Assembly (NCBI GenBank): GCA_026390775.1
Contig: JAPLFF010000007.1
Coordinates: 1,364,001 to 1,428,000 of the forward strand
Origin: Ignavibacteriales bacterium
GTDB taxonomy: Bacteria; Bacteroidota; Ignavibacteria; Ignavibacteriales; Melioribacteraceae
DNA length: 64,000 nt
Direction of reading: 5' to 3'
The notes beneath the pieces were generated by a model. It ran no database searches. It saw nothing but the letters and a program-made list of their open reading frames with translations, and had not been told where the DNA came from. Shown here in pieces: positions 47,728-56,339 of the stretch (its first letter is position 1; every line of letters begins with the position of its first letter). The translations under genes were made by a program, and so were the position numbers.

Positions 47728-48786
47728 CTATTCTTTTTTTTCTAATAGACGACTTTCTAAATTCGATCTAATCTTCTTAACATTGGCAGCCAAATCTACC
47801 ATTAAGAAAATCATTTCCAGCAATAAACCTAAGAGCCACATGTATAAAACAAATGTGAGAAATGTTATCAACAGTCCAATCAGTAATGATTTAAAACTGT
47901 ACTTAGCTTCAGCTTTCATGTTTTCGAGATTTGCTTTGTAGCCGCCCACTTCGCTGTTGTAACCGCTCTCTTGATTTTTCAGGTTAGAGTATTCCGGCTG
48001 GATTCCATTACGTAGATCATCATCGGAAAAATTGGAAACATCTATATCGGCAAGTTTAATTGTAATCCAATTATCTCCGTATTTCTTAAATGTGTTCTTA
48101 AGATTTTCATCCGGCGAATTATAATAGAAATAATTTTCCAGATCCGTCCGTGTATATTCAATGGAATTTTTATCTGTAAGATAGTTTCTCACGTCGAGGT
48201 AATTTTTCAAATCCTGAAATTGTACATTGCTCGATAATTGTGCTGCGATTGTAATGTTCTCTTTTTCTGCGGCGGATCTGTTCTTCCCCCGTTCATCTAT
48301 GAAGTTTTTTATCAATTGATCCTTCTTTCCGTTCCAGTCTTTATCAAAACTCTCCAGCTTTGTCTTTGCTGCCTGGAATGTGCTGTCCAATGAATGGATA
48401 TACTTTTCCGCGCCCTCGATCTGAACACGCAAATATTGAGGAGGAAGAAATGAATTCCACGATGAAATTGATCCCGTACTGATTACAAAAACACCAATTA
48501 TTATTGCAAACCCCTCCAGTATAATCAACAACTTGTTAAGGAGATACTGTTTGTTCTCGGTTATTCCAGTATCTCCCATCTCTCCAAATTGAGTGAGACT
48601 TATAAAACGATTTTTGAAATAGAGGAGAGGGCTGTAGATAATTGAAGCTATAATTCTGAGGATTCCAAGAAAAGCATAGCCGAACTTATCTTTTGTAAAC
48701 CAATATGAAAAGCCTGCTAAGATTAGGATAGCAATAACTAATATCCAAACGAAACTAATTTCGTATTGACTAATTAGATCGAACAT
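47728..48786 (-). CDS. hypothetical membrane protein with large coiled-coil loop
   Basis: 352 residues. Membrane segments at about 11-28, 39-58 and 87-105, then about 170 soluble, charged, helical residues (LDSTFQAAKTKLESFDKDWN...) and a final segment about 300-327 with FLTFVLYMWLLGLLLEMIFLM. Topology suggests the helical region is on one side of the membrane in a MscS-, phage-holin- or secretion-partner-like layout, but no family is recognised. The gene stands alone, with 620 bases upstream lacking a gene. Confidence 0.65.
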   Translation of the reverse strand: MFDLISQYEISFVWILVIAILILAGFSYWFTKDKFGYAFLGILRIIASIIYSPLLYFKNRFISLTQFGEMGDTGITENKQYLLNKLLIILEGFAIIIGVFVISTGSISSWNSFLPPQYLRVQIEGAEKYIHSLDSTFQAAKTKLESFDKDWNGKKDQLIKNFIDERGKNRSAAEKENITIAAQLSSNVQFQDLKNYLDVRNYLTDKNSIEYTRTDLENYFYYNSPDENLKNTFKKYGDNWITIKLADIDVSNFSDDDLRNGIQPEYSNLKNQESGYNSEVGGYKANLENMKAEAKYSFKSLLIGLLITFLTFVLYMWLLGLLLEMIFLMVDLAANVKKIRSNLESRLLEKKE

Positions 48787-49406
48787 ACAATTCTCCCGTT
48801 TTTGTTATTATGATTTATATATTATCAATAAAAGAATTTGTCTTCAGTTCGATCTTAAAAAAAATTACTGCAAATTATTTCAATCTATCTTTTTGATTTT
48901 ATCCTTTCTGCTAGCTCTTGGAGAGTAATGTTTTTTATACTCACATTCCTTTTCTTTAATCAAAATAATGAAATAAGAAAGAAATAGAAATAACAACTAA
49001 TTATAAACACTTGACACCAAATATTGAAAGCATACCTGTAATTAATAATTTATGTATGTTGTATAAAACAACAAATCCTCATAGGAAAATTCTTGAGGAT
49101 TTTTTTGAACTTGATTGCATTGTGAATGAAGTTAAAAAGTTAAAGATTTTTTGTCGATTGTATTTGATTGACTCATATTTGATTGCACCTAAAGAACAAA
49201 AATTTTGTAGCATAATGAATTTTGATATGTTGTTTTAAGGAGGATAAAAATATAGATTAAAACACGAATTAAGTGCTTTTTATTTGGATGAAGTTTTGAA
49301 TAGGTACAACTAGCACTGAGTATTTTTGTTCTAAAATTTTGTTAAGATTAATATCCATCGTTCATCCTAAGTGTTCTGATGAGTCAACTAATTTGGAGAA
49401 ACAACC
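48787..49406. other. 620-base region without convincing gene
   Basis: A/T-rich. It contains a 75-codon TTG-started frame (49011-49238) without a ribosome site or recognisable motif, and an orphan AAGGAGGATAAAAAT near 49238 not followed by a start. The HEAT-repeat gene begins at 49407, and its promoter probably lies here. Confidence 0.4.
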
Positions 49407-50189
49407 ATGGAAGAAAATTCATATAATACTATAAAGAAACTTTTAGCCAGCAATAATCCGGAAGAGTTACGCCGTGGGATGGAATTAGTAAAAAAAGAAA
49501 TTGCTAGGATCGGATCTTCTGAAGCAAGACCGTTATTTGAAATGATATCAGCAATTTTTTATATAGATACATTAGATCTGCCTGATCTAGTTCCGGTACT
49601 TGAAGAAGCCATTAGTTTAACTGTTGGTTTTGGCAAGTGGGTTGTTCCGGTGTTGATAGAAAATCTAGAAGCCGGTGATCTGAAAGCTCAAATGGTTATC
49701 AGCCATGTTTTAGGACGAATAGGCGCAGATGCGATCCAACCATTAATTACTGAATACACATCTTCATCTGATCCGGATCGTCATACCTTTATATTGTATG
49801 CGTTGAGTAAAATAAAATCTCCCGCAATTGTGCAGGCTGCTCAACTGGCACTTGATGCAACTCAATCACCCGATCGCGAACTTCGTGATACAGCAACCCG
49901 GGCGATTGGAAAGTTTGCCGAGTCTATACCACCGTCACAGTTGTCGGAGACTCTACGAAAAGAATTCAGAGAAAAGTTGGAGATCAATCTGGCTGATACA
50001 AATGCAAACATTCGTACAAAAGCTGTACGGAGTTTAGGTAAACTTGCTAAATATGGTCATCTAACAACTTCGGAACGAGAGAAACTCCGGCTGGTATGTC
50101 AGCGTATTTTAGGCACAGATGATTCTTATGATTGGGATCGAGCCTTTACCGTCCGCAAAGAAGCTGAGGAAGCACTAAAATATGTTTGA
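49407..50189 (+). CDS. HEAT/PBS-lyase-repeat protein
   Basis: 260 residues of helical repeats. KLLASNNPEELRRGMELVKK at the start, then VVPVLIENLEAGDLKAQMVI, ADAIQPLITEYTSSSD and TNANIRTKAVRSLGKLA show the HEAT-like pattern A-x-x-A-L-x-x-I-G. No signal peptide, so a cytosolic scaffold is likely. GGAG precedes the ATG. It is the last chromosomal-backbone gene before the tRNA-Thr att fragment. The repeats are degenerate, so exact boundaries are uncertain. Confidence 0.8.
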   Translation: MEENSYNTIKKLLASNNPEELRRGMELVKKEIARIGSSEARPLFEMISAIFYIDTLDLPDLVPVLEEAISLTVGFGKWVVPVLIENLEAGDLKAQMVISHVLGRIGADAIQPLITEYTSSSDPDRHTFILYALSKIKSPAIVQAAQLALDATQSPDRELRDTATRAIGKFAESIPPSQLSETLRKEFREKLEINLADTNANIRTKAVRSLGKLAKYGHLTTSEREKLRLVCQRILGTDDSYDWDRAFTVRKEAEEALKYV

Positions 50190-50420: not shown

Positions 50421-50454
50421 AAAAAACAAAACCCCAAAACTTTTCGTTTTGGGG
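50421..50454 (-). terminator. terminator associated with tRNA-Thr fragment 1
   Basis: CCCCAAAAC-TTTTC-GTTTTGGGG, 9-base-pair stem, with a minus-strand U-run (GTTTTGTTTTTT). It lies immediately 3' of the tRNA fragment on the minus strand and would end tRNA transcription if the gene were whole. Confidence 0.85.
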
Positions 50455-50460
50455 TCATTA

Positions 50461-50503
50461 GAGCTGGCTATGGGGCTCGAACCCGCGACCTGCTGATTAC
50501 AAA
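50461..50503 (-). repeat. tRNA-Thr 3' half, att copy 1
   Basis: Reads on the minus strand as a tRNA 3' half: anticodon loop TTTGTAATC (anticodon TGT, Thr), anticodon 3' arm, variable region, T arm GCGGGTTCGAGCCCCAT and acceptor AGCCAGCTC. The 5' half (D arm, start of the gene) is absent on the right side. It equals copy 2 except for one base in the T-arm (GCCCC versus GTCCC). It is typical of the fragment left when an integrase inserts DNA into a tRNA 3' end. Confidence 0.9.
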
Positions 50504-50552
50504 GAATATTCAAAAACTCGTAACTATAAACAAAATAATAATTGAAAAATCA

Positions 50553-50575
50553 TTGCCATAGTGTTTGCCATAGTG
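50553..50575. promoter_or_regulatory. candidate integrase arm-type sites, left end
   Basis: TTGCCATAGTG occurs twice, starting at 50553 and 50565, 12 bases apart (about one helical turn), 50 bases inside att copy 1. The motif CCATAGTGTTTGCC recurs at 53413 near the other end of the segment. Arm-type binding sites of tyrosine recombinases look like this; the recombinase is not identified. Confidence 0.5.
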
Positions 50576-50760
50576 AAAATTAAATTAATTTTGAAAAGTG
50601 CAAAGAGTCATGGAATTTTGGATAGCCACAACGACTTCATTAATTGGCGAGTAAACCACTACCTTTAACTGCCTAAAAGATGTAGTTCCTTTTTCATCCC
50701 TTTGCCCGATTGAACTGCAATGCATTTATTTATATAATTATTAAGCACACACAACCAATT

Positions 50761-50799
50761 AACCCAGCTGCAAATTAAAGCAGTATTTACAGCTGGGTT
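50761..50799. repeat. inverted repeat upstream of island kinase
   Basis: AACCCAGCTG and CAGCTGGGTT form perfect 10-base arms around a 19-base loop, about 100 bases upstream of the kinase ATG. There is no clear U-run. It could be an operator or a leader hairpin. The rest of 50190-50900 holds the att fragment, terminator and arm repeats but no gene. Confidence 0.5.
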
Positions 50800-50900
50800 T
50801 ATTAAGAAATATTTTTATCCAACAAAAAGGAAATATTTTTGCATTTTTATATGTGCACGAAGTTCTGGATATGGACAGGTAATGCAAATAAGAGGTTTAC

Positions 50901-53252
50901 ATGTCTCTAAAGAAACTATTCATAGTTCTTTTGGGGATTCAATTTATATTAGTTGTTGTTTTGATGGTATTGACTCTTTTTCAATTCCAGAATCAAGGAG
51001 ATCTGAATAAGAGCCGAGACATTCATTTCAAATCCTATTTGCTGGCGGATGAGCTGCGCCAAAGCTCGGACGATCTTTCACGTATGGCGCGGACTTATGT
51101 TGTAACCGGCAACACTGAGCATGAACGCGACTACTGGACTATTCTCGACATCCGCAATGGCAAAAGCCCTCGTCCGGTGAGTTACAACCGCATCTACTGG
51201 GATTTCAAAGTGGCAACAGGACAGAAACCGCGCCCCGATGGTGAAGCAATATCACTTCAAGATTTGATGATCAAAGAAGGTTTTACAAAAGCTGAGTTTG
51301 AGAAATTATCCTTAGCGCAGAAGAATTCGGATGGGTTGGTCAAAACAGAAATGATCGCTATGAATGCAGTAAAAGGTTTGTTTGATGATGGTTCCGGAAA
51401 CTTTACAGTAAAGAAAAAACCCGACCGCGAGATGGCAATAAGAATAATGAATGATGAGGCATATTATACAAACAAAGCTGAAATCATGAAGCCGATTGAT
51501 GAATTCTATGTTATGTTTGAAAAACGAACCGCCACAGATGTCGCCAAGTATGAACAACGTTCAACAAACTTACTTTGGTATAGCACAACGCTTATCATAA
51601 TTATTATGGGCATGTTTATAATATTCTTTGTTGCAATCGAACGCCAGATTACTACGCGCATGCATTCAGAAGAAGCATTACGCGAAAGCGAAGATAGTTA
51701 CCGCGATCTGGTTGAAAACAGTAGCGACTTGATAATAACCCACGACCTGGATGGAAATCTTCTCTCATCGAATGGTACTGCGTTAAAAATTATCGGCTAT
51801 TCTAAAGACGAAATAATAAATATGAATTTGCAAAATATTATAGTCCCGGAATACCGAAGGCTCTTTAATGTTTATTTGGATAATATAAAAAGAATTGGAC
51901 ATGCACGCGGACTTATGATAATTCAAACTAAAACCGGTGAAAAACGTATTTGGGAATATAATAACACACTCCGAACCGAAGGTATTGCTAAGCCAATAGT
52001 GCGGGGGATGGCTAAGGATGTTACGGAGCAGAAGCGGGCGGAATTAGAACGACGAGTATTATATGAAATAACACACGGCGTTACTACAACTGCCAATCTC
52101 GATGAACTGCTGAAGTTGATACATAATTCTCTAAAGAAAATAATTTATGCGGAGAATTGTTTTGTTGCACTTAATGATCAAACCACAGAACTTTTTAGCT
52201 TTCCATATTTTGTCGATAAGTTCGATCCAACTCCCGAACCTGTAGCTATGCGGAAAAGCTGTTCCGCTTACGTTTTCAAGACAGGTAAATCGTTACTGCT
52301 TACACAAAAATTATTTGACCAACTCGTAGAACAAGACGAAGTCGAATTAGTTGGTACAAATAGCCCGTCATGGATTGGTGTGCCGTTGCAAACACCAAGC
52401 AAAACAATTGGTGTTTTAGTTCTTCAACACTATGAAGAGGAGAATGTATATACTGAACGAGATGTTAAATTTCTCGACACCGTTGGAAGTCAAATTGCTA
52501 TTGTTATTGAACGCAAGCTAGCAGAAAAAGAAATTAAAAAACGTAACGAACAACTATCAAAACTTAATTCAGAAAAAGATAAATTCTTTTCAATAATAGC
52601 ACATGATTTGAAAAATCCTTTTGTTACTATTTTAGGGTTTTCTGAACTGCTTCTTGCAGATTATGCAGAACTAAACGATGAAGAAAGAAAATATTATATC
52701 GAAGAGATGAAAAAATCTGCTGATCTTTCTCATAATTTGCTGCAGAATTTATTACTATGGTCGCGTGCTCAAACTGGCCGTATTGAATTCAATCCGCAAA
52801 AACTTAACCTTCACAATATTTTTCATGAAAATTTAGATCTTGTTAAAGCAACTGCGGACAGAAAACAGATTCAATTAAACCATGATCTACCCGATGATAT
52901 AACGCTTATTGCTGATGAAGATATGCTCAACACTATTATTAGAAATCTTCTGACTAATGCAATAAAATTTACAAATAAAGGTGGGACAATTTCTGTGAAA
53001 GCAGTTTCAAATGAACATGATATAGAAATTGCAGTTGCTGATTCTGGGGTCGGCATGGATCAAAAAACTATTGATAATCTATTCAGATTGGATGTAACTA
53101 GTTCAGCAAGTGGGACTGAGAGTGAGTCCGGAACCGGACTCGGGTTAATTCTGTGCAAGGAATTCGTTGAAAAAAATAACGGTAAGATTTGGGTTGAAAG
53201 TGAATTAGGAAAAGGAAGTACTTTTTATTTTAATTTGCCGAATGCGGAATAA
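50901..53252 (+). CDS. PAS-GAF sensor histidine kinase, island cargo
   Basis: 783 residues. TM1 (about 7-28), a periplasmic helical domain (about 30-225, LRQSSDDLSRMARTYVVTG as in bundle sensors), TM2 (about 226-247), PAS with PAC (about 265-375, ending GMAKDVTEQKRAE), GAF (about 385-535), HisKA with H568 in SIIAHDLKNPFVT, and HATPase with TNAIKF, ADSGVGMD and GTGLGLILC. No receiver domain and no adjacent response regulator, so it is an orphan kinase whose partner lies elsewhere. AGAGG precedes the ATG. It is the only gene between two tRNA-Thr fragments. Confidence 0.92.
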   Translation: MSLKKLFIVLLGIQFILVVVLMVLTLFQFQNQGDLNKSRDIHFKSYLLADELRQSSDDLSRMARTYVVTGNTEHERDYWTILDIRNGKSPRPVSYNRIYWDFKVATGQKPRPDGEAISLQDLMIKEGFTKAEFEKLSLAQKNSDGLVKTEMIAMNAVKGLFDDGSGNFTVKKKPDREMAIRIMNDEAYYTNKAEIMKPIDEFYVMFEKRTATDVAKYEQRSTNLLWYSTTLIIIIMGMFIIFFVAIERQITTRMHSEEALRESEDSYRDLVENSSDLIITHDLDGNLLSSNGTALKIIGYSKDEIINMNLQNIIVPEYRRLFNVYLDNIKRIGHARGLMIIQTKTGEKRIWEYNNTLRTEGIAKPIVRGMAKDVTEQKRAELERRVLYEITHGVTTTANLDELLKLIHNSLKKIIYAENCFVALNDQTTELFSFPYFVDKFDPTPEPVAMRKSCSAYVFKTGKSLLLTQKLFDQLVEQDEVELVGTNSPSWIGVPLQTPSKTIGVLVLQHYEEENVYTERDVKFLDTVGSQIAIVIERKLAEKEIKKRNEQLSKLNSEKDKFFSIIAHDLKNPFVTILGFSELLLADYAELNDEERKYYIEEMKKSADLSHNLLQNLLLWSRAQTGRIEFNPQKLNLHNIFHENLDLVKATADRKQIQLNHDLPDDITLIADEDMLNTIIRNLLTNAIKFTNKGGTISVKAVSNEHDIEIAVADSGVGMDQKTIDNLFRLDVTSSASGTESESGTGLGLILCKEFVEKNNGKIWVESELGKGSTFYFNLPNAE

Positions 53253-53412
53253 GTTGAAAGTTGTAGTTATCCAAAACTTTGCACGCATTTAAAAATGCAA
53301 ATACTTTGTGCTACTTATTTGAAAATTTATTTCTTGCAAATCATATATAACTGTAGAAAAATTTTTCTTAGTCACAAAATGTGAAAAGACTTTTAAAAGA
53401 TAATGATCACTA

Positions 53413-53426
53413 CCATAGTGTTTGCC
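53413..53426. promoter_or_regulatory. candidate integrase arm-type site, right end
   Basis: CCATAGTGTTTGCC here is identical to 50556-50569, in the same orientation, about 100 bases inside att copy 2. It supports a single mobile unit between the two fragments. Confidence 0.5.
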
Positions 53427-53488
53427 CCAGTTCACGTCTGTTATGGTGTATAAATGAGGTCTGTCTAGGTTAGTTTTAAAAGTTGGAT

Positions 53489-53526
53489 AAAAACAAAGCC
53501 CCGAATCCTTTCGAATTTCGGGGCTT
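53489..53526 (-). terminator. terminator associated with tRNA-Thr fragment 2
   Basis: AAGCCCCGAA and TTCGGGGCTT form a 10-base-pair stem. On the minus strand it is followed by TGTTTTTATCC. It sits just 3' of tRNA fragment 2, as in copy 1, although the stem sequence differs. Confidence 0.85.
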
Positions 53527-53528
53527 TT

Positions 53529-53571
53529 GAGCTGGCTATGGGACTCGAACCCGCGACCTGCTGATTACAAA
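53529..53571 (-). repeat. tRNA-Thr 3' half, att copy 2
   Basis: A 43-base direct repeat of 50461-50503 with one mismatch, again lacking the 5' half. The tyrosine recombinase gene begins about 100 bases to its right, the usual position of an integrase next to its attachment site. It is thus the left end of a second island and the right boundary of the first. Confidence 0.9.
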
Positions 53572-53618
53572 TAATCGGGATTCTTTGCTTTATTGTTTGC
53601 ATTATTAGTTTTTTGCAA

Positions 53619-53638
53619 AGTCCCTACCCAGTCCCTAC
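53619..53638. promoter_or_regulatory. candidate arm-type repeats for the adjacent integrase
   Basis: AGTCCCTAC occurs twice 11 bases apart between att copy 2 and the integrase gene. It is a different motif from that of the first island, as expected if the two islands use different recombinases. Confidence 0.45.
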
Positions 53639-53673: not shown

Positions 53674-54711
53674 ATGTTCATTTCAACATCTAAAAAATCA
53701 CCGTTCTATCAACTCACTTATGAAGTTGATGGAAAGCGAACGACTGTTTCCACCAAAACGAAAAATCTTCAAGATGCCTACAAATTCATGGCTAACTTTT
53801 CTCGTATTGGTAAATTAACACATGCTGAAAGGAAAGAAACCAAACAACAAATCAAATCTACCTCACTATCAAAATTCAAGGAGGAATATGTTGACCACAT
53901 TAAGTCAACAAAATCTAAAAGCTATCTTCGTTCAATAAAGCTTTCTTTCAAAATGCTGATTGCATTTACCGGAGATCTTCAATTAAGTAAATTAGAACTT
54001 CACACAATCGATAAATTCATCACTCATACTTATTCACGAACTCCGAGAGGAGCTGCTCTTTATTACCGTACACTAAAAGCAGCTTTTAGTAAAGCTGTTC
54101 TTTGGGATTATCTTTCAGAAAATCCACTGAAGAAAATTAAAACTCCAAAAGTTTCTAAAGCTTTTCCGGTTTTCATCTCCGAAACTGAATTGAAAACTAT
54201 TCTGGAAAATACACAAGATGTATATCTCAAAGATTTATTTTTTACCGCTTTTTATACTGGTATGCGCCTTGGTGAATTAGTAAATATGAAGTGGTCTTGG
54301 GTCGATCTGAAACAGAATCAAATTACTGTTCAATGCTCAGAGTTTTTCACAACCAAGAGTAAAAAAGAAAGGATCATCCCGTTTAATCCTAATCTCAAAA
54401 CGATTATTATTAATCGCTTTCCAAAAGTATTCAATATTAAAAATGATGAATATGTTTTTTCAAAATCCCCTGGAGTAAAATTCAATGAAGACTTCATAAG
54501 CAAACAATTCAAAGTCTCAATTCGTGCCGCCAAACTTGATGATAAAATTCACTTCCACACTTTGCGTCATTCTTTTGCTTCGCTGTTGGTCCAACGCGGA
54601 GTTTCTTTGTACGTGGTTAAAGAATTACTTGGTCATGAAACGATTTCGACAACTCAGATTTACAGTCACCTTCAGCAACAAAATTTGAGAGATGCGGTGA
54701 ATCTTCTATAA
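53674..54711 (+). CDS. tyrosine recombinase (phage-type integrase)
   Basis: 345 residues. N-terminal arm-binding part (about 1-55), a SAM-like core-binding domain (about 70-155) and catalytic domain. Catalytic residues are complete: R198 in YTGMRLGELVNMKW, H295 and R298 in HFHTLRHSFAS, H321 in ELLGHETIS and Y330 in TQIYSHL. AAGGAG precedes the ATG. It lies about 100 bases from a tRNA-Thr 3' fragment, which is its probable attachment site. It ends at a strong terminator. Confidence 0.95.
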   Translation: MFISTSKKSPFYQLTYEVDGKRTTVSTKTKNLQDAYKFMANFSRIGKLTHAERKETKQQIKSTSLSKFKEEYVDHIKSTKSKSYLRSIKLSFKMLIAFTGDLQLSKLELHTIDKFITHTYSRTPRGAALYYRTLKAAFSKAVLWDYLSENPLKKIKTPKVSKAFPVFISETELKTILENTQDVYLKDLFFTAFYTGMRLGELVNMKWSWVDLKQNQITVQCSEFFTTKSKKERIIPFNPNLKTIIINRFPKVFNIKNDEYVFSKSPGVKFNEDFISKQFKVSIRAAKLDDKIHFHTLRHSFASLLVQRGVSLYVVKELLGHETISTTQIYSHLQQQNLRDAVNLL

Positions 54712-54968: not shown

Positions 54969-56339
54969 TTAGGGAAGTAAACACCCGCTTTGCCTTACCT
55001 CCTCTGCTACGCGAATTATCGCCTCAAGGCTTCGCTCTACATCCTGATCCGTCGTTGCCCACGACGAGATGCTGATCCGCATGGCTGTGTGCCCCTGCCA
55101 GACCGAAGCACCAGCCCAGCAAGTACCTTCTTCCTGAATGGCAGCGATGATGCGACGCGTTGTCGCTGCATCTCCGAATGAAACCAGCACCTGATTAATG
55201 ACTACGTCGTTGAGAATGTTATAGCCTGCTGCGTGCAACCCTTTGGCAAAATGCGTTGCATGTCGGCAGGTACGCTCGATCATGTCGGCAAGTCCCTCTC
55301 GTCCCAATGAGCGTAACGCTGCCCACACCTCAACTCCGCGTGCCCGGCGCGAGAACTCCGGTGTATAGTCTTCTGGTTCACGCTGTTCTCCATGAACTAA
55401 ATAGGCGGCAGTAATCGAGAATGCTGCACGCAGGTGCAACTGTTCACGAACGATGACAATCCCGCTGTCATAAGGCACGTTGAGCCACTTGTGGGCATCC
55501 GTTGCCCACGAGTCGGCATTTGCAAAACCCTTGACCAGATGTTTACGATTCGGTGCTACAGCCGCCCATAATCCAAATGCACCATCCACGTGAACCCATG
55601 CGCCCGCAGCTTTTGCTTGTGGAATGATCTCATCTGCATGGTCGAATGCGCCTGTGTTGACGTTACCCGCCTGAATGCAGACGATTGTATTTTCATCAAG
55701 TGGCGGCAAAGAATTCGCACGCATTCTACCTTGACCATCAACTGGAACTCTGATGACTCGCTCGCGTCCCAGACCTAGTGTCATGAGAGCCCTCAGCACA
55801 CTCACGTGGACTTCATCTCCGACTACTACTGTAATCGGCGGTGCACCGAATAAGCCCCGGGCTTCGACATCCCAGCCCTGTCGGGCGAGAAGAGCATGTC
55901 TTGCAGCGGCTAAACCAGAAAAATTCGCCTGAGTTGCACAGGTGACAAAACCTACACCACAATCAGACGATAACCCTAGCATATCAAGCAACCAGCGCAT
56001 AGCGACTTCTTCCAATTTAGCAGCAATCGGTGAGAGAGTTACTATGCCTGCGTTTTGATCCCACACCGTAGCCAGCCAATTAGCAGCAACCGTTGCCGGG
56101 AGTGAGCCGCCGACAACAAAGCCGAAATAGCGCGAGCCGGCCGTCGCCACCGTCGCAGGTGAACCGATTTCATCCAACAACGCAACGACCGCTTCCGGGT
56201 CGGTGGGTGCTTCAGGCAACGGCTCATCAAGCAGTCGCAGATTAGCAATGGCTTCCGGCTTTGGCGCCACGTTCCGATCATTCAGTCCATCCAGATAACG
56301 CCACGCGCGTTCAGTGGTTTCTTTCAACAAGTGCTTCAT
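54969..56339 (-). CDS. PLP-dependent decarboxylase family protein, probably horizontally acquired
   Basis: 456 residues of the group II amino acid decarboxylase/aminotransferase class. PLP lysine K284 in SWATDAHKWLNVPYDSG, D252 in WVHVDGAFGLWAA and a cofactor-binding region TCATQANFSGLAAARHA. It resembles aromatic L-amino acid/glutamate decarboxylases; the substrate is not determinable. Base use is clearly different from its neighbours: G/C-rich with GCC, GCG and CGC-type codons against the A/T-rich surroundings. This suggests recent transfer, consistent with lying beside an integrase. GGAGAG precedes the ATG. It ends next to the T9SS remnant. Confidence 0.88.
   Translation of the reverse strand: MKHLLKETTERAWRYLDGLNDRNVAPKPEAIANLRLLDEPLPEAPTDPEAVVALLDEIGSPATVATAGSRYFGFVVGGSLPATVAANWLATVWDQNAGIVTLSPIAAKLEEVAMRWLLDMLGLSSDCGVGFVTCATQANFSGLAAARHALLARQGWDVEARGLFGAPPITVVVGDEVHVSVLRALMTLGLGRERVIRVPVDGQGRMRANSLPPLDENTIVCIQAGNVNTGAFDHADEIIPQAKAAGAWVHVDGAFGLWAAVAPNRKHLVKGFANADSWATDAHKWLNVPYDSGIVIVREQLHLRAAFSITAAYLVHGEQREPEDYTPEFSRRARGVEVWAALRSLGREGLADMIERTCRHATHFAKGLHAAGYNILNDVVINQVLVSFGDAATTRRIIAAIQEEGTCWAGASVWQGHTAMRISISSWATTDQDVERSLEAIIRVAEEVRQSGCLLP

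Follow-up and report, generated by a model that had tools for sequence, protein, structure and literature searches.

A one-gene sensor-kinase islet between tRNA-Thr halves in an Ignavibacteriales genome is probably a recombinase-less integrated element in tandem accretion

A 3.1-kb islet in the genome of an Ignavibacteriales bacterium carries one sensor-kinase gene between two tRNA-Thr(TGT) 3' halves. We interpret this islet as an element integrated at tRNA-Thr(TGT) that has no recombinase and has kept both attachment sites, i.e., as a CIME (cis-mobilizable element) in tandem accretion, and assign this reading a probability of roughly 0.78. The islet lies in the window analysed here, a stretch of 64,000 nucleotides (C7:1364001-1428000) from a genome of 3.01 Mb in 8 contigs; positions given without a contig refer to this window. 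It does not stand alone: at least three insertions are stacked here, and the islet is the middle unit, with an older insertion of one gene on one side and a later island that bears an integrase on the other.

The left tRNA-Thr(TGT) 3' half (50461..50503, minus strand) represents the older attachment half-site and agrees with the intact gene at 42 of 43 bases. The right half (53529..53572, minus strand), which would have been brought in by the islet, agrees at all 44 bases, and the two halves differ from each other in one base. A comparison with Rfam gave no tRNA-family match in these fragments, as expected for halves. On the plus strand, each half is preceded by its own strong and different terminator hairpin: the intrinsic terminator of the left half is found at 50430..50456 (minus strand) and the one carried by the islet, with a sequence unlike the left one, at 53493..53526 (minus strand). 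Their folding energies are -17 and -20.3 kcal/mol, respectively (z -5.0 and -4.4, 0 of 200 shuffles). Different terminators at the two halves are expected if every unit brings its own. The intact tRNA-Thr gene, adjoined by a SpoU-type methyltransferase gene, was located 37 kb to the right of the islet at C7:1454265-1454338 (L008 8265-8338, minus strand). The flanking of the segment by two 3' halves with a terminator each had been described in the initial annotation, which also suggested looking for an intact tRNA-Thr to the right of the window, and both were found.

The sole gene between the halves encodes a PAS-GAF sensor histidine kinase of 783 aa (50901..53252, plus strand) with PAS, GAF, HisKA and HATPase_c domains, and no receiver or partner regulator is encoded in the islet. 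The content of the segment is thus, as described before, a single PAS-GAF histidine kinase with no recombinase. In a comparison with 57 genomes, no other kinase exceeded 49% identity among the matches listed, these matches covered residues from ~178 on and left the N-terminal ~177 residues uncovered, and the same 3-kb unit was not found in a second genome. Because the kinase is also absent from the corresponding site in G003, a sister species of the same genus, we regard it as strain-specific cargo.

The interior of the islet may have been remodelled. An IS-end-like repeat at 50838..50880 (minus strand, 89% to the array repeat) points left, away from the kinase gene, and a second one at 53260..53398 (plus strand, E=2e-13 over 129 bases) points right. 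The latter continues into a stretch sharing 75% identity with the left portion of the att modules of a tRNA-Ser array, which makes the islet a mosaic. The repeats around the kinase gene thus point outward; they resemble the ends of an rve-type IS next to tRNA-Ser, which we treat as a lead only, and IS activity may have trimmed or exchanged the cargo of the islet. More copies of the repeat are present at 49283-49310, near a HEAT-repeat gene, and at 50610-50635, near the left end of the islet. A MITE was rejected as the identity of these TGTCCATATCCAAAAC repeats, since good matches are confined to the tRNA arrays, a few contigs and the islet and are not freely dispersed. No target duplication at the repeats was seen by eye.

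The 14-base motif CCATAGTGTTTGCC is present as an exact copy at 50556 and at 53413, in the same orientation and inside both islet ends, as had been reported; the chance expectation is 0.22 per window at ≤2 mismatches. At the left end, the motif belongs to a paired arm-type direct repeat, two copies of the 11-base sequence TTGCCATAGTG at 50553 and 50565 (50553..50575, plus strand), and this step of 12 bases agrees with the earlier description of two repeats one helical turn apart. The right-end copy covers 53413..53426 (plus strand). Clear arm copies thus number two at the left end and one at the right, and arm repeats lie on both sides of the tRNA core, as in an attP. The distance from the tRNA half to the arm pair at the left end is 50 bases (50504 to 50554; arm-to-tRNA spacings were counted by hand from printed sequences). 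The longest word common to the two 250-base islet ends is 14 bases long; none of 300 dinucleotide shuffles of these ends shared 14 bases, the largest shared word being 13.

In the 3.0-Mb genome CCATAGTGTTTGCC has three exact copies, two in the islet and one at C2:4107, and the concern that the motif might be common elsewhere in the genome was not substantiated. The locus at C2:3849-4200 (L026) comprises a right end, a tRNA-Thr-like core with an internal deletion and then a CCATAGTG pair at 49 bases, the arm repeat pair being located at C2:4105; a GGTCA pair is present around the core as well as the CCATAGTG pair. Judged by its sequence, this locus resembles a further junction of the islet kind, now decayed, with a tRNA-Thr core that looks decayed as well.

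The strongest test of the arm reading was a scan with the arm only, in which GCCATAGTGnnnGCCATAGTG was compared to 257 Gb of genomes and the tRNA was not used in the query. The scan returned 35 stretches, mostly within coding sequence; one non-coding match, in Ignavibacteriales SURF_28 (L241), has a tRNA-Thr half. The order there is terminator, tRNA-Thr 3' half, 50 bases, TGCCATAGTGATTGCCATAGTG and then unrelated cargo (DUF2130 and others), with an arm-to-tRNA distance identical to that at the left end of the islet; arms are visible on one side of the core only, and the contig edge ends the sequence. Near-matches to the arm were detected in two further members of the class, G067 and G393, and the one in G067 lies 51 bases from a tRNA-Lys-like fragment. 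Furthermore, the CCATAGTG pair is built in the same way as the arm pairs of the neighbouring island, of G001 and G005, in which AGTCCCTAC pairs lie beside intact tRNA-Thr, and of G012, in which a homologous integrase (47% identical) is found beside tRNA-Thr behind a third arm, GTTCAGTAAagtGTTCAGTAA, also with period 12. The CCATAGTG motif is therefore, by analogy, very probably an attachment-arm repeat, and its binding by an integrase is putative. Its function is assigned by analogy since the search for a recombinase with CCATAGTG arms next to the site was negative in this genome, in G067 and in G393, and L241 stops at a contig edge. A viral source was considered and rejected, as the two exact 21-base matches in viral contigs fall within coding repeats.

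The oldest edge of the stack is marked by a stretch at 49065..49112 (minus strand) that matches the terminator located directly at the intact tRNA-Thr of G003 (38/48, E=5e-6) and whose terminal bases are the first ones of the tRNA 3' end that was lost; the fold at 49072-49110 has -10.5 kcal/mol (z -3.2). We read it as a decayed relic of the ancestral tRNA-Thr terminator and as the original chromosome edge. Between the relic and the left tRNA half lies the HEAT-repeat gene (49407..50189, plus strand; Pfam HEAT), which is absent at the G003 site and is the probable cargo of an older insertion at about 49.1-50.46 kb. In G003 the tRNA-Thr is intact and uninterrupted, and the order is an orthologue of 47728-48786 (82% identity), one DUF6901 gene, terminator, intact tRNA-Thr and SpoU (83%). 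Neither the kinase nor the integrase nor the HEAT gene is present between the flanking genes in G003, and the site differs from the pre-insertion state in that the DUF6901 gene separates the flanking gene from the tRNA. An empty tRNA-Thr site in a relative, as anticipated in the initial annotation, thus exists, and no relative was found to have the kinase at this place, which disposes of the objection that it might stand there without the tRNA fragments. The boundary map therefore gives the order flanking chromosome, older HEAT-gene unit, kinase islet, integrase island and intact tRNA.

A scenario in which the tRNA 3' end was duplicated locally, in tandem, around a resident kinase gene would agree with the presence of only one gene and with the ordinary G+C content of the islet (32-40%). 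However, the terminators at the two copies differ, arm repeats are present, the G003 site is uninterrupted and the same arm-tRNA arrangement occurs in another genome; we consider such a duplication in place of an insertion highly improbable.

A 36.7-kb island occupies the space between the right tRNA half and the intact tRNA-Thr. Its arm, AGTCCCTAC, is present at both of its ends and is unlike the CCATAGTG arm of the islet. The pair of arm repeats is found 46 bases inward of the tRNA half, and once more next to the intact tRNA; the arm repeat AGTCCCTACCCAGTCCCTAC (53619..53638, plus strand) recurs without a mismatch at C7:1454164. A complete tyrosine recombinase gene (53674..54711, plus strand, 345 aa) with conserved R198, K228, H295, R298, H321 and Y330 begins 102 bases to the right of the right tRNA copy, a link to the segment that the initial annotation had missed. 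This recombinase belongs to the AGTCCCTAC neighbour and not to the islet. It has no close viral relative, which also speaks against a viral source. A second integrase of the 36.7-kb neighbour is encoded at C7:1438 kb and has relatives near the AGTCCCTAC-armed tRNA-Thr in G001 and G005; the neighbour may be one element or two.

Further observations concern the content of this island. An integrase 3' remnant just to the right of the window (C7:1428443-1428709) is 80% identical to the window integrase and is a relic of another element in this island. The pyridoxal-dependent decarboxylase gene at 54969-56339 has 51-54% G+C vs 35-43% in its neighbourhood and is probably a recent import. At C7:1444-1448 kb (L008:94-1839, L007:12434-13594), one protein matches NCBIfam 6A-MBL anti-phage cap2_3 below the cut-off, and a gene nearby is metallo-beta-lactamase-like by eye with no Pfam match; the pair is a possible defence system on the tRNA-Thr island.

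The AGTCCCTAC integrase might mobilise the islet in cis by excising islet and island together, using the leftmost half and the tRNA-proximal site, which would be a refinement of the main reading. The core halves hardly differ in sequence from one another or from the intact tRNA, the neighbour's integrase retains its catalytic residues, and CIME-ICE tandem transfers have been observed (PMC5704250). On the other hand, the arms of the islet are unlike those of the neighbour and the composite was seen in no relative, and we put this refinement forward as a tentative possibility.

The genome encodes five intact tyrosine recombinases, namely two Xer-like proteins, the window integrase and those at C7:1438 kb and C7:20 kb, and CCATAGTG arms were found beside none of them. 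No recombinase was detected near the CCATAGTG arms in G067 and G393, and the single Phage_integrase match in the SURF_28 genome is on a contig other than that of the arm. A recombinase recognising the 14-base motif, as postulated before, was thus not found in these genomes, and neither was a larger relative, such as an ICE or IME, from which the islet would derive by deletion.

The tRNA arrays outside the window were studied as selected stretches. At C7:20011-23118 (L208), an integrase element directly adjoins tRNA-Ser(GGA) and has a GGTCATTTTTTGGTCAC pair. An island stack is located behind tRNA-Ser(TGA) at C7:1565446-1616000 (L103, L045-L047) and contains repeated att modules of ~250 bases, composed of a GGTCAC arm pair, ~20 bases of the tRNA-Ser 3' end and a terminator; no recombinase profile matched inside this stack. 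GGTCATTTTTTGGTCAC resembles GGTCACAAAATGGTCAC in the tRNA-Ser(TGA) stack, and the integrase element at tRNA-Ser(GGA) is a candidate helper for the tRNA-Ser stack. In addition, a tmRNA gene at C3:84009-84482 (L050/L111) is followed by the arm-like pair GGGCACAAAATGGGCACA and the same IS-end-like repeat, which suggests a third insertion hot spot.

Mobilisation in trans, by a CCATAGTG-recognising integrase encoded elsewhere, would make the islet a small non-autonomous element like satellites or CALIN cassettes. The two-sided att architecture without a recombinase, the recurrence of these arms next to unrelated cargo in SURF_28 and again at C2, and the likeness of the GGTCAC arms of the integrase-less tRNA-Ser islands to those beside the tRNA-Ser(GGA) integrase element are consistent with this, but the search for a helper with CCATAGTG arms was negative, the left tRNA half is mutated, the IS-like relics inside suggest decay, and no second genome has the same 3-kb unit. 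We regard it as unlikely. A broader proposal, to which we give little credence, is that the lineage runs a tRNA/tmRNA cassette system in which small integrase-less units with lineage-specific arm repeats are moved in trans by arm-matched resident integrases and stacked into arrays; the arm would be CCATAGTG at tRNA-Thr, and GGTCAC or a related sequence at tRNA-Ser and tmRNA.

CIMEs in tandem accretion with an ICE or IME are known from Streptococcus (reviewed in PMC5704250). The islet fits this definition, since a recombinase is absent and both attachment sites are kept: it is flanked by attL/attR core repeats, the two tRNA-Thr 3' halves of 43-44 bases, has a single kinase open reading frame and no integration or transfer genes, and adjoins an integrase-bearing element on the same core site with the intact tRNA at its far end. 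It differs in having one cargo gene, no identified ICE/IME ancestor and arms unlike those of its neighbour. Among the ssrA genomic islands of Dehalococcoides, 15 are without integration modules and have been suggested to be CIMEs (PMC3146451); there, too, islands are stacked behind one RNA gene with partial gene copies between them, whereas the recombinase is of the serine type and the target is ssrA, in contrast to the tyrosine-recombinase architecture, arm repeats and tRNA-Thr found here. Tycheposons are likewise cargo islands that are bordered by a tRNA and associated with tyrosine recombinases, but they are described as 4-200 kb in size and as carrying a tyrosine recombinase (PMC10872708), while the islet has 3.1 kb, one kinase gene and no such enzyme. 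Integron cassettes and CALIN, too, are small and carry cargo but no recombinase of their own (PMC11389934); the islet boundaries, however, are tRNA halves, and an integron was rejected, as no IntI integrase exceeded the TIGR02249 curated cut-off in the genome. Our literature search yielded no relevant description of a comparable system in Ignavibacteria.

The islet as a CIME probably arose as follows. A tyrosine recombinase would have inserted it by a crossover, presumably at the anticodon loop of tRNA-Thr, and the tRNA would have stayed functional through the 3' half and terminator supplied by the islet. The ancestral integrase was then probably lost, with the tRNA core, the CCATAGTG arms and one sensor kinase being retained. 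The restored tRNA would later have been entered by a further element, equipped with an integrase of its own and different arms, which stranded the islet on the far side. The segment had been proposed to be a minimal, non-autonomous integrative element; its non-autonomous and integrative nature at tRNA-Thr is supported by its own tRNA half and terminator, the two-sided arms, the uninterrupted sister site and the recurrence of the arm, while "minimal" by design, as opposed to decayed, is conjectural. Present mobility of the islet, in cis or in trans, is putative.

Taken together, the islet is of a known kind, a decayed or hitch-hiking genomic island, and what is new is its very small size, its single sensor gene and an arm signature recognisable in different genera. 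The arm repeat alone, at a near-fixed 49-51 bases from a tRNA fragment, can find integrase-less islands across genera, which are easily missed by searches starting from an integrase. The predicted helper is a tyrosine recombinase gene beginning within ~150 bases of an arm TGCCATAGTGnTTGCCATAGTG that lies 45-55 bases from a tRNA half. Should the arms still be usable, a comparison of the arms of resident integrases with those of orphan islands would predict which of these islands are mobilisable in trans.
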